From positions 1 through 23,439 of the IMG/VR virus record IMGVR_UViG_3300022200_005722: a DNA stretch of 23,439 nucleotides, one strand, 5' to 3'. The stretch comes from a virus. Positions within the stretch are counted from its first letter, which is position 1. Every line of letters starts with the position of its first letter. The notes under the pieces are model-generated. The model worked only from the letters and a program-made list of their open reading frames with translations, was not told where the DNA came from and searched no databases. The translations under genes and the position numbers were made by a program. Below, piece after piece: positions 2,117 to 17,343 of the stretch.

Positions 2117-3178
2117 ATGAACTTCATACCTGTACCGCTTCAGGCGGTGAGGGGTGACCTACGTCGCCCCCATGAACACCCGGCGTCCGACTCGGTGATC
2201 CTGCTGGAGATGGGCGCGCTCATCGTCCTGGGGGAGTGGGACGAGTGGTCCCAGACCCAGTTGGCGCGCCGGTTCAAGTGCGGCAAGACGAGGCTGCTCA
2301 AGTGCGCTCAGAAGCTGGCAGACCAGTTTCAGACCATGAGCGGACCGGCAACGGACCAATGGCGGACCGCCATTCTTGAGAAGTTTCCGCAGCTTACGGA
2401 CACCCCTGGACCAGAAGCGGACCAGAAGCGGACCAATAGCGGACCCCGCGCGCGTTCTTCTCTTAAGAGAGAAGAGAAAGAAGAAGAGAACGCGGCTGAC
2501 GCCGCTGATGATGAAGCTGGGTCCAGTCCCTCGGACAAGGCCAAGCAGACGAAGAGCTACACCGAGGAGTTTCAGCGACTGGCAACGCTCAGGTCCAGCA
2601 TCCTCAACGGACAAGGCGCGCTGACCGAAGCAGCCAAGACCACGAAGCCAGCCAAGGCCATCCTGGACCAGTACCGGAAACTCCGAGACAGGGGTCTCAC
2701 CGAAGACGGCATCGCGTGGCTCATCCGGTGGACCTTCCTCGCCCCGGACGACGACAAGCCCGGGTCGGCTCACTACCTGCGGAGCAAGGGCTACACGTCG
2801 ATGAAGAACCTGCTCGTGGACGCGAAGGCAGACGACCGGATCGAGAGGGCTCGTCGGTGGGACGCCGCTGGATGCACGCTGGCTGGCCCGCACGTTGCCA
2901 ACGTGGACGAGGGCGTCTTGAAGCGCAAGGCCACGCGCAAGGGGCCGCAGGCACGCCCTGACGAGATCCCCGTCGACGACATGGTGGCCGTGGTGCTGGA
3001 CATCGCGCGCCAGCTCCGAGACGGCACCCGCCCGCTGTTCGTGACCTGGCCGAGGTGGCTGGACAGGCTGGACGATCGGCGTGTCAGACTCGCCCGACGG
3101 GTTGAGCAGGAGGCGGACGCGGTGAAGAACATCAACGACGAGAGCGGGGCTCGGGTCCTGCTGGAGGGGGCAGCATGA
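2117..3178 (+). CDS. phage replication initiator-like protein carrying the origin
   Basis: The 353-residue product is organised like phage replication initiators of the lambda O or DnaD-like type. The N-terminal part (about 24-70) contains a winged-helix-like HTH (WSQTQLARRFKCGKTRLLKCAQKL). Residues about 72-145 are a low-complexity, highly charged linker (SLKREEKEEENAADAADDEAG). The C-terminal part (about 148-240) is helical and has YLRSKGYTSMKNLL, similar in style to the C-terminal domain of replisome organisers that recruit helicase. ATG 2117 follows GAGAGAGAAC; the upstream TTG 2105 lacks a ribosome site. The DNA for residues 68-111 holds the 11-bp iteron array. The gene sits two genes upstream of the helicase. 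The role is inferred from domain layout, embedded repeats and neighbours, not from a clear family match. Confidence 0.7.
   Translation: MNFIPVPLQAVRGDLRRPHEHPASDSVILLEMGALIVLGEWDEWSQTQLARRFKCGKTRLLKCAQKLADQFQTMSGPATDQWRTAILEKFPQLTDTPGPEADQKRTNSGPRARSSLKREEKEEENAADAADDEAGSSPSDKAKQTKSYTEEFQRLATLRSSILNGQGALTEAAKTTKPAKAILDQYRKLRDRGLTEDGIAWLIRWTFLAPDDDKPGSAHYLRSKGYTSMKNLLVDAKADDRIERARRWDAAGCTLAGPHVANVDEGVLKRKATRKGPQARPDEIPVDDMVAVVLDIARQLRDGTRPLFVTWPRWLDRLDDRRVRLARRVEQEADAVKNINDESGARVLLEGAA
2319..2450 (+). repeat. 11-bp-phased iteron array (probable replication origin, initiator binding sites)
   Basis: C(G/A)GACC (TGGACC once) starts at 2319, 2330, 2341, 2352, 2363, 2407, 2418, 2429 and 2440. Every interval is 11 bp or, once, 44 bp, so nine copies share one 11-bp lattice. 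Longer matches include CGGACCAATGG, CGGACCAATAG and TGGACCAGAAG/CGGACCAGAAG. Since 11 is not a multiple of three, successive copies are read in different frames (DQ, QT/RT, GP, DQ, RT, then GP, DQ, RT, GP). The conservation is therefore in the DNA, not the protein. Iterons within the initiator gene next to an AT-rich tract is the layout of the lambda origin in gene O. Confidence 0.75.
2455..2490 (+). other. AT-rich purine tract, candidate DNA unwinding element
   Basis: This stretch is about one third G+C within a very GC-rich genome and begins 5 bp after the last iteron. The left part contains the 12-bp palindrome TCTCTTAAGAGA (2459-2470); the rest is almost pure purine on the + strand. It encodes the Lys/Glu-rich linker of the initiator. 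An easily melted, strand-asymmetric tract beside iterons is typical of theta-type phage and plasmid origins. Unwinding here is inference. Confidence 0.6.
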
Positions 3179-3606
3179 CCAACGACGAAGCGAGGGCGCT
3201 CGGACTGCGGGCGGTGGCGTGCAATGGCTGGCGTTGGATGCCCGGTATGCGATCCGAGATTCGCACACGGACGCGCCGAGCAGCGTACCGATGGCTGTCG
3301 GGACCGACCGACGAGCGGCATTGGGGCCTGGTCGTCATCGTCGAGGACCATCGGGGCTGGCCTGCTCGCACCGTCGCGACGCTCCAACCGGGCCCGCATG
3401 ACCTGCCCGACCTGGACGATGGCGCGACGCTGGGCTGTCTGCTGGCGTTGGTGCGGCTGGCGAGGCTCGACCCGTACTGGCTGCCGACGTGCCTTGACTG
3501 GGAGGGAGGGATGGCCTGGGTAATCGAGGAACCATCCCGCAAGCGGCAGACGCGACACGGGAGCTATGCCGCTGTGCTCGTGGCAGCGCTGGAGGCTGCG
3601 CCATGA
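3175..3606 (+). CDS. hypothetical phage early protein, 143 aa
   Basis: ATG 3175 overlaps the initiator stop by ATGA, and the stop overlaps the helicase start in the same way. The N-terminus contains CNGWRWMPGM (residues 16-25). From memory this is a recurrent signature of small phage early proteins in GC-rich genomes, usually annotated as hypothetical. PDLDDGATLGCLLALVRLA (about 79-97) is a second conserved-looking block, followed by a Trp-rich C-terminal half. There are no membrane segments and no catalytic motif I can name. Its position between initiator and helicase suggests expression with the replisome. Function unknown. Confidence 0.7.
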   Translation: MTNDEARALGLRAVACNGWRWMPGMRSEIRTRTRRAAYRWLSGPTDERHWGLVVIVEDHRGWPARTVATLQPGPHDLPDLDDGATLGCLLALVRLARLDPYWLPTCLDWEGGMAWVIEEPSRKRQTRHGSYAAVLVAALEAAP

Positions 3607-5003
3607 ACACCGCGCCCAACCGAGAGCCCCAGCGCCACCACCTGGAGCAGCGCCTCATCGCCACCCTGCTCGGGCCCATCGGCTCGGGCATCCCCACCGA
3701 GGAGCGGCGGGAGATGCTGGCGCGCGCCGCAGACATGAACCTGGACACGCTCATCGCTGACCCAGATCTCCGCGCCGTGCTCAAGGCAGCGTTCCACCTG
3801 CAGGACCGCAACCGGGACGTGGTGCCGATGCTCGTGGCTCGGCAGATCCAGGAGAGCACCGACGACCCGGTGCAGGCCAAGCGCCAGCGGCGGGCGATGC
3901 TCGAGGCGGTCGCGCTGGACCCGATGGCCTTCGAGGAGATCGTGCGCGGCTTGCGGACGATGAGCACCAAGAGCACCATCATCGAGATCGCTCAGCAGCT
4001 CAACGCGGTAGCCGCGCAGGGCAAGTCGGCCGAGGACATGACCGCACTCGCCACCCATCTGCTCGGAGAGCTGCTCAGCACCGCCGACGCGAATCGGGAG
4101 CGCCGCCCGAGCATGGGAGCGGCCGAGGCGCTGGACTCGTGGATGGAGGGCGTCGAGGCCGACCTGGCAGCGCGCAACGACCCCAACGCGCCCCAGCCCC
4201 TGCGCTTCCAGGCGCCGCTGAAGTGCCTCGCTGAGGACTGGTGGGACGTGCTGAAGCCTGGGCGTATGCCGGTCATCGCTGCCCGTTCGGGCGTGGGTAA
4301 GAGCGCCATGGCCTTCGAGTGGGCCAAGCGTCTCACCATGGACGGGATGCGCGGGACCTACATCACGCTGGAGATGCCCGAGGACCAGAAGGCCGAGCGC
4401 CTGATCCGGCAGTCCAGCCCCTACGGCTCGCGCCACATCTGGAATCGGCCCACGCTCATGGACGACGTGCGCCCCCACTGGCAGCGGCTGCGGGAGCAGT
4501 TGGGGAACCAGTTGCGAATCAACTACCCTCGGGGAGGCATGACCATCACGGGCTTTCGTCGGTGGTGGCTGTCCGAGTGCCGGCAGCACGGGAAGCCCGA
4601 CTACATCGTGGTCGACCACCTGCACCGCTGGTCCTACACCGACATGGACGCGCGCACGGGTGAGAACCAGAAGATCGCGGAGGTCACCGCATTCCTCAAG
4701 GACCTCGCCATCACCCAGGAATGCCTCGTTGTCCTGCTGAGCCAGATGAACCGGGAGTTCGACAAGCGCGGCGCTGACTCTCGCCCCATCCTTTCCGACC
4801 TCTACGGCTCGAAGGCCATCGAGCAGGACGCGGACGCGGTGCTGTTCCTGCACCGTCCCCAGATGGCCGACCAGCGCCTGCAAGGCGCGGAGATGGCGCA
4901 GGCCATCGTGGCGAAGAACCGAGAGGGCCCGCTGGGCACCTACGAGATCCAGTTCTTGCGCGACCACTTCACGTTCCTCGGGGACAAGCGGGTGATGCTG
5001 TGA
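3603..5003 (+). CDS. dnaB-like: DnaB-type replicative DNA helicase
   Basis: The 466-residue protein has the two-domain plan of DnaB. Residues 1-165 are the helical N-terminal collar domain (HHLEQRLIATLLGP start, then SADANRERR linker), and residues 200-466 are the RecA-like motor. Visible motifs are Walker A ARSGVGKS (227-234), the catalytic glutamate in TLEMPE (257), Walker B YIVVDHLH (334-341), LSQMNRE (379-385), LYGSKAIEQDADAVLFL (400-416) and the C-terminal KNREGPLGTYEI with its arginine-finger region. It is expected to form a hexamer that unwinds DNA 5' to 3' at the fork, loaded by the upstream initiator-like protein. ATGA couples it to the preceding gene. Length and motif order are normal for the family. 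Confidence 0.93.
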   Translation: MNTAPNREPQRHHLEQRLIATLLGPIGSGIPTEERREMLARAADMNLDTLIADPDLRAVLKAAFHLQDRNRDVVPMLVARQIQESTDDPVQAKRQRRAMLEAVALDPMAFEEIVRGLRTMSTKSTIIEIAQQLNAVAAQGKSAEDMTALATHLLGELLSTADANRERRPSMGAAEALDSWMEGVEADLAARNDPNAPQPLRFQAPLKCLAEDWWDVLKPGRMPVIAARSGVGKSAMAFEWAKRLTMDGMRGTYITLEMPEDQKAERLIRQSSPYGSRHIWNRPTLMDDVRPHWQRLREQLGNQLRINYPRGGMTITGFRRWWLSECRQHGKPDYIVVDHLHRWSYTDMDARTGENQKIAEVTAFLKDLAITQECLVVLLSQMNREFDKRGADSRPILSDLYGSKAIEQDADAVLFLHRPQMADQRLQGAEMAQAIVAKNREGPLGTYEIQFLRDHFTFLGDKRVML

Positions 5004-16546: not shown

Positions 16547-17290
16547 CTACTGATGACGGTCCTCGTTGGCGTGAGTCATGAGTTCGGCCCGCAGGGCTCG
16601 GGCTCGTTCAACGGCCTCGTCCTCGGTGGCGAAGACGCCGCCGTAGTGCGAAACACCATTGACCATCACGTCCACTTGGTAGGGCCGTCGTCCGCCACGG
16701 GACCTGCGCGAGACTCCGCGTGCGCGCTCACGACCAGGCCGGGCGACGTTCTGGGCATTCTCGGCCGGGGTGACGGCGCGCAAGTTGCTGCGACGGTTGT
16801 TGAGGCGGTCGCCGTCGATGTGGTCGCAGTACAGGGCACTGTCCTCGATGCCAAGAAGGATGCGCCCCAACTGGACATCGCCCACTCGTGCGTACCCGTT
16901 GCCATCGCGGTGGATTCGTCCCAGCGCACGGACCCGGCCAAGGTCGGCGAGGTCGATGACGCAGATCGCCACCGGCATTCCGTGACGGTTGGTCAGGCTC
17001 AACTCCACCGATGCGCAGTCGGCCCCGACAACGGTATTGGTCCCACTGTCCCGCAGGGGACGCATGACCTGCCCTCGCCTATGCTGCACGTAGTGGCCCT
17101 GACACAGGCCCTTGCAGGTGGCGCCAAGGCCACACCCAGGGAAGGTGCATACCTTCCCGACGTTCGGCCTGTACGGCTTGAGCGGCTTGAGATCCTTGCC
17201 CTGCCACTGCTGCTTGTAGTGACTGCGGCACAGCCCCTTTGTGGACGCAGCGCGCCCGCATCCCTTGAAGCTACAGAAGTTCTGACCCAT
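16547..17290 (-). CDS. HNH homing endonuclease with two zinc fingers and AP2 domain
   Basis: The 247-residue protein is encoded against all neighbours. Two tandem finger-like repeats come first: Cys6-Cys11-Cys21-His24 (CSFKGCGRAASTKGLC) and Cys48-Cys53-Cys63-His66 (CTFPGCGLGATCKGLC). The HNH nuclease core is CDHIDGDRLNNRRSNLR (155-171) followed by AVTPAENAQN, with the catalytic DH at 156-157. Residues about 191-236 are an AP2-type DNA-binding domain (GVSRRSRGGRRPYQVDV, HYGGVFATEDEAVERARA). This is the usual make-up of free-standing phage homing endonucleases, which cut unoccupied alleles and spread by repair. ATG 17290 has no clear ribosome site but lies 5 bases after TACACT, so a leaderless transcript is plausible. 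Its insertion separates two structural genes. Confidence 0.9.
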   Translation of the reverse strand: MGQNFCSFKGCGRAASTKGLCRSHYKQQWQGKDLKPLKPYRPNVGKVCTFPGCGLGATCKGLCQGHYVQHRRGQVMRPLRDSGTNTVVGADCASVELSLTNRHGMPVAICVIDLADLGRVRALGRIHRDGNGYARVGDVQLGRILLGIEDSALYCDHIDGDRLNNRRSNLRAVTPAENAQNVARPGRERARGVSRRSRGGRRPYQVDVMVNGVSHYGGVFATEDEAVERARALRAELMTHANEDRHQ

Positions 17291-17295
17291 GCCTA

Positions 17296-17303
17296 AGTGT
17301 AAC
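17296..17303 (-). promoter_or_regulatory. GTTACACT element before the homing endonuclease
   Basis: On the - strand this reads GTTACACT, then five bases, then ATG. TACACT could be a -10 giving a leaderless mRNA. The same octamer lies before the genes at 8504 and 18973. No clear -35 is seen. Confidence 0.35.
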
Positions 17304-17343
17304 ACGGCGGCGAGCATCGCACAGCTTGTGCGGGAGGTGTACC

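Follow-up and report, generated by a model that had tools for sequence, protein, structure and literature searches.

Positions 2319-2490 of the viral window (the whole stretch of 23,439 nucleotides analysed here) are very probably a replication origin, as judged from the anatomy of the DNA and from precedents, and lie within the gene for the putative initiator. We put a probability of roughly 0.86 on the complete reading, namely that this is a theta-type origin in the hinge-coding part of an initiator gene, at which a helix-turn-helix (HTH) of the initiator would bind the repeats, an adjoining tract would melt and a helicase would be loaded. A sequence-only reading of this DNA had proposed an origin hidden inside the initiator gene, and this remains the best supported explanation, given the selection acting on the DNA, the weakest duplex of the record next to the repeats, a DnaB-like gene close by, the recurrence of the module in a set of relatives (family A) and an anatomy shared with phage SPP1. 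The features concerned are the following.

2117 to 3178, plus strand: candidate replication initiator gene, an open frame of 353 aa upstream of the DnaB-like helicase gene
2249 to 2293, plus strand: HTH-like segment SQTQLARRFKCGKTR, residues 45-59 of the candidate initiator, putative iteron-reading helices
2319 to 2368, plus strand: iteron group 1, five copies (2319, 2330, 2341, 2352 and 2363)
2407 to 2445, plus strand: iteron group 2, four copies (2407, 2418, 2429 and 2440), in register with the lattice of group 1
2447 to 2454, no strand: alternating CGCGCGCG, a (CG)4 spacer separating the iterons from the AT tract
2455 to 2490, no strand: candidate DNA unwinding element, AT-rich, and purine-rich on the plus strand
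3175 to 3606, plus strand: gene for a 143-aa protein, overlapping both neighbours (the initiator and helicase genes) by 4 bp
3603 to 5003, plus strand: DnaB-like replicative helicase gene (Pfam DnaB_C, 1.4e-42; PHROG_19, 8.6e-49)

Re-reading the sequence recovered all nine of the hexamers reported earlier, each at its reported position; they share the consensus [CT][GA]GACC and lie on a single 11-bp lattice that spans 2319-2445. The copies at 2319 and 2330 read CAGACC, those at 2341, 2352, 2363, 2418, 2429 and 2440 read CGGACC and TGGACC occurs once, at 2407; the lattice slots at 2374, 2385 and 2396 are empty, which splits the copies into five plus four. Self-identity within the repeat region is 0.52 at lag 11 and 0.46 at lag 22, and just these two lags stand out, the others lying mostly at 0.19-0.31 and none above 0.35. 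The motif alone is not rare, and CRGACC is not over-represented across the window (39 occurrences vs 51 expected). A scan of both strands, proposed with the original observation, revealed no second cluster of this kind anywhere in the window.

The lattice is selected as DNA, a conclusion supported by recoding tests in which neither the protein nor codon usage could explain the nine sites. When the gene's own synonymous codons were shuffled, the check that the sequence-only reading had called for, nine lattice sites were obtained in none of 20,000 trials and eight only once. Codon-order shuffles gave three at most, and synonymous codons drawn from the rest of the phage with the protein held fixed gave no more than seven in 50,000, against the nine observed. 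Rare codons sit in or beside the iteron cores, at places where the bases of the core, or the base that follows it, call for them: GGA provides 7.7% of the glycine codons of the phage yet all three of those at iteron cores, and CCA (4%) and CAA (3%) are further rare codons found in or beside cores. The same selection had been argued earlier from the presence of copies in all three codon phases; the selection holds on the strength of the recoding tests, but the phase argument falls away, since any 11-bp repeat in a coding frame hits all three phases automatically and the point proves nothing by itself.

Because the iterons are translated, into an initiator linker reading ..ADQKRTNSGP.., the repeats might be a feature of the protein, an 11-residue hydrophilic linker (D..RT..GP) kept for flexibility or charge and having no role as DNA. 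The repeat does encode a low-complexity and probably disordered hinge, the counterpart of which is the least confident stretch of the structure model of a relative described below. The linker explanation is nevertheless highly improbable: the DNA unit is 11 bp and not 33 bp, relatives change the hinge peptide when their N-terminal domain changes, and both the ceiling of seven sites with the protein fixed and the placing of rare codons where the core needs them would be left unaccounted for.

The origin reading gains further from the DNA next to the iterons. The 36-bp AT-rich, purine-rich tract previously noted after them was confirmed at 2455-2490, beginning 10 nt on from the last iteron. Its GC content is 33%, compared with 66.6% for the whole record, and no other 36 bp in the entire 23.4 kb are as AT-rich or as unstable, with a mean nearest-neighbour dG of -1.19 vs -1.605 (sd 0.079) for the window. 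The CG run recurs at the matching place, in a shorter form, in L034, and most relatives of family A have it there too, even the ones whose N-terminal domain differs. The GC skew of the window was uninformative on origin position. Further along the same candidate initiator gene, an 18-bp repeat, CGAAGCCAGCCAAGACCA, is present in two copies at 2626-2660.

It is also conceivable that the repeats are an operator array that controls transcription of the replication operon while replication starts elsewhere. Initiators commonly autoregulate, and many operators consist of HTH sites repeated at regular intervals. This array, however, lies more than 200 bp inside the gene, away from the promoter, and adjoins the 36 bp at which the duplex is weakest in the record, and in SPP1 gene 38 the equivalent layout serves as an origin. 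We therefore regard a purely regulatory array as very unlikely, although a regulatory role could be present on top of the origin function.

Gene context supports the assignment of the 2117-3178 product as a replication initiator. The order in the window is candidate initiator, 143-aa gene and DnaB-like helicase, and the middle gene sits where SPP1 has its gp39 loader and where a helicase loader would be expected; its product showed no family match, no loader match and no detectable similarity to SPP1 gp39, which counts against the origin reading. Elsewhere in the window, 79-771 is a DNA methyltransferase-like gene (PHROG_799, 1.8e-30), and 1213-1590 encodes a protein of 125 aa that begins in HTH-like fashion and whose C-terminal part resembles the alpha CTD of RNA polymerase (23.1 bits in Pfam, against a cut-off of 23.8). 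On the minus strand, 16547-17317 is an HNH_3 endonuclease gene, possibly for a homing endonuclease, amid oppositely oriented structural genes.

The candidate initiator itself is laid out as an N-terminal HTH-like segment, the repeat-encoded hinge and a C-terminal region. It has no match in Pfam, PHROG or INPHARED, apart from one PHROG hit at 0.082 whose family has no known function, and specifically none to the DnaD-like profiles PHROG_2514/428/186, to O-like PHROGs or, in the Pfam search, to a RepA_N domain. Among viral contigs the only relative found was an identical copy, carried by one contig, and INPHARED had none. Comparison by hhalign with family A gave E 3e-4 and a probability of 39% for whole proteins, while the N-terminal part alone aligned weakly both with family A (E 0.005, probability 7%) and with the DnaD-like family (E 0.045, probability <10%). 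An hhalign alignment with the DnaD-like family pairs SQTQLARRFKCGKTR with the helix pair S...L..RW.W[SG]K.K, and a segment of this type occurs in just one of the 22 window genes scanned, 2117-3178. A structure model of the product was too poor (pLDDT 44.5) and was discarded. The protein appears to represent an orphan lineage of initiators, its likeness to known families outside the hinge being weak, and this too counts against the origin reading.

Searching viral sequences for the DNA pattern, as three CGGACC spaced by 11 bp, yielded 60 stretches, about 20 of which, the window not counted, fall in two sets of initiator-family frames. The first set, family A (L014, L043, L052 and others), consists of genes for proteins of ~300 aa that start MKQW.P.P..I and have the hinge ADQKRTK.GP, and its DNA carries the same module as the window, a CGGACC lattice followed by a CG run and then an AT tract. 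Terminase (38% identity) and portal (33%) are homologous between these phages and the window phage, from which we take them to be the same lineage at a distance. Directly after the initiator gene, one of the two family A loci scanned (L014) has a gene matching the PHROG_2289 helicase loader (8.9e-5), to which SPP1 gp39 also belongs, and the other (L052) has a gene with no PHROG_2289 match. One member of alignment A1 matches the O-like phrog_678 at 5e-4. The family A sample is biased, most members having been retrieved via the CGGACC pattern itself; among four found by protein alone with the hinge intact, L110 has GGACC on the lattice and three have other repeats.

In three loci (L115-L117), the family A C-terminal domain is kept and the N-terminal domain is different. 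The CG run and AT tract are retained here, and the hinge has no GGACC lattice, showing instead, on reading the sequence, CCG-type repeats at 10, 10 and 11 bp. A similar joint exchange is seen between the RepA_N plasmids pPR9 and pSK41, in which the N-terminal domain and the origin differ together and the C-terminal domain is kept (PMC5703833). Taken together, the exchange and its plasmid parallel support the view that the N-terminal domain would be the part that reads the repeats. A more specific code, in which a recognition helix starting with K or R would go with [GA]ACC and one starting with N with GACA, was dropped. It had separated a first set of genes at 28:1 vs 1:20 (Fisher 9e-12) and dissimilar representatives at 15:0 vs 1:3 (p 0.004), with few independent changes on the tree, but it failed on 35 held-out relatives, where K/R went with RACC in 2, with GACA in 5 and gave 11 ties (p 1).

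Across such initiators the pitch is 10-11 bp and not strictly 11. A scan at 10-bp spacing, intended as a negative control, gave 38 stretches, and two of these (L081 and L083) are initiator-like frames whose CGGACCC cores are spaced by 10 and 21 bp, from which the wider limit follows; downstream they have a run of CCCTCA units. When genomes were scanned for CGGACCA at 11 bp, most of what was found lay outside initiator genes, a single Bacteroidales assembly contributing the bulk of these repeats, together with two loci (L147 and L205) that match the DnaD-like initiator family strongly. In the series L119-L237, mainly from Bacteroidales bacterium UBA3630, there are dozens of scattered tandem arrays of 11-bp units resembling CGGACCATCCT; many are not spanned by any long frame, and there is no sign of kinship to the phage origins.

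Such dispersed arrays, mostly lying outside initiator genes in the genomes that have them, lend some substance to the idea that the window array is a functionless tandem-repeat expansion that happened to land in a tolerant hinge. However, the window copies are alike mainly in the core and share little in their 5-bp spacers, the second group returns to the lattice of the first after three empty slots, and the array recurs in the corresponding hinge of many initiators with different flanks, all of which makes a chance expansion extremely improbable.

The second set of frames, family B, is the DnaD-like or replisome-organizer family (L009, L026, L028, L039, L041, L056 and L059), into which SPP1 gp38 falls (PHROG_428/2514). 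One locus, L028, has the complete SPP1 order of initiator, gp39-like loader (PHROG_2289, 8e-17) and DnaB, and in SPP1 itself the hinge of gene 38 carries an 11-bp lattice of AAACGACACAG-like units followed by an AT-rich AACAATGATAACAATG. Across 28 dissimilar family B genes, lag-11 identity is 0.46 in the hinge vs 0.23-0.28 in the flanking domains; in 35 held-out relatives the values are 0.43 vs 0.26-0.28, and lag 11 is the best in 19 of 34. Bordetella phage IFTN1 has a different kind of replication protein, and lag 11 again gives the best local repeat in its hinge. Among DnaD-like phage initiators a hinge pitch of 11 bp, or of 10-11 bp in some relatives, is general, and for this reason the short, helical-turn-sized unit that had been singled out in the window is not special to the window phage. 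The model of a family B relative (pLDDT 78) has an N-terminal winged helix, in which the segment comparable to SQTQLARRFKCGKTR forms helices 61-68 and 72-84, and a PDB fold search with it returned mostly winged-helix entries, with plasmid initiator or Rep entries lower (E >0.03). A search of 300 genomes of the Paenibacillus phylum with DnaD-like profiles gave few full-length matches. Searches of the open literature gave no description of GGACC iterons, of an 11-bp pitch for this class or of a CG-run boundary; the pitch may already be reported in subscription papers on SPP1 oriL.

Origins inside initiator genes are already known, from lambda, SPP1, 80alpha and the RepA_N plasmids. The sequence-only reading had named lambda O as the parallel, which is apt in that both combine iterons and an AT tract within the initiator gene, but SPP1 gp38 with oriL and the pSK41-type Rep are the closest precedents. 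Lambda has four iterons, which are larger than 11 bp, compared with nine 6-bp cores at 11 bp in the window. The mid-gene placing of iterons and AT-rich tract is shared by lambda O and its lambdoid relatives (PMC7466680). Gene 38 of the Bacillus phage SPP1 contains the proven oriL, with direct repeats and an AT-rich unwinding region (PMC6316719). The two systems are alike in having the origin site, a probable one in the window, in the initiator gene, the 11-bp hinge lattice and the AT-rich tract, and likewise in the order of initiator, small gene and DnaB-like helicase (38-39-40 in SPP1). They differ in the core, which is ACGACAC-like in SPP1 and GGACC in the window, in the membership of gp38 in PHROG_428/2514, which the window protein does not share, and in the middle gene, which is unlike gp39. 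The RepA_N systems (pSK41 Rep, pPR9) have the origin inside rep, in the linker-coding part, and a winged-helix N-terminal domain that binds it (PMC5703833); they are, however, plasmids with four Rep boxes, and the window protein has no Pfam match to them. In phage 80alpha, the origin is thought to be embedded in the gene of the gp38-related initiator ORF20, which is followed by a DnaC-like loader with no phage helicase (PMC5499656), in contrast to the DnaB-like helicase one gene downstream in the window.

We propose the following sequence of events for the window phage. The 2117-3178 product would bind the nine GGACC-type iterons through its N-terminal helix-turn-helix and, the iterons being one helical turn apart, the bound initiators would stack along a single face of the DNA. 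Acting across the (CG)4 boundary, the initiator complex could then melt the 36-bp AT tract, where the DnaB-like helicase from the downstream gene would be loaded. Replication would start at 2319-2490, as the anatomy and the precedents suggest.

What is new here is such a probable origin in an undescribed lineage of phage initiators; less expected are how general the helical-turn pitch is and the presence of a CG-run boundary. A wider reading, which we advance tentatively and at slightly less than even odds, is that helical-turn iterons in the hinge are a general and probably convergent design of unrelated winged-helix phage initiators, recognisable from sequence alone, in which N-terminal domain and repeats are swapped jointly, with the CG-run boundary belonging to the lineage of the window. 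It would take in the DnaD-like initiators, the orphan lineage of the window, L081 and L083 and the IFTN1 replication protein. For the window phage, a likely origin and initiator can now be assigned in a lineage with no described initiator family. The anatomy also suggests a way of finding origins in uncultured phages: the gene that precedes the helicase or loader gene can be searched, in its hinge-coding part, for a 10-11-bp lattice accompanied by an AT tract. The natural exchanges of N-terminal domain and repeats offer matched pairs for tests of initiator specificity, and, if the pitch is general, the stacking of initiators on one face of the DNA would be testable across many phages by changes of spacing alone.
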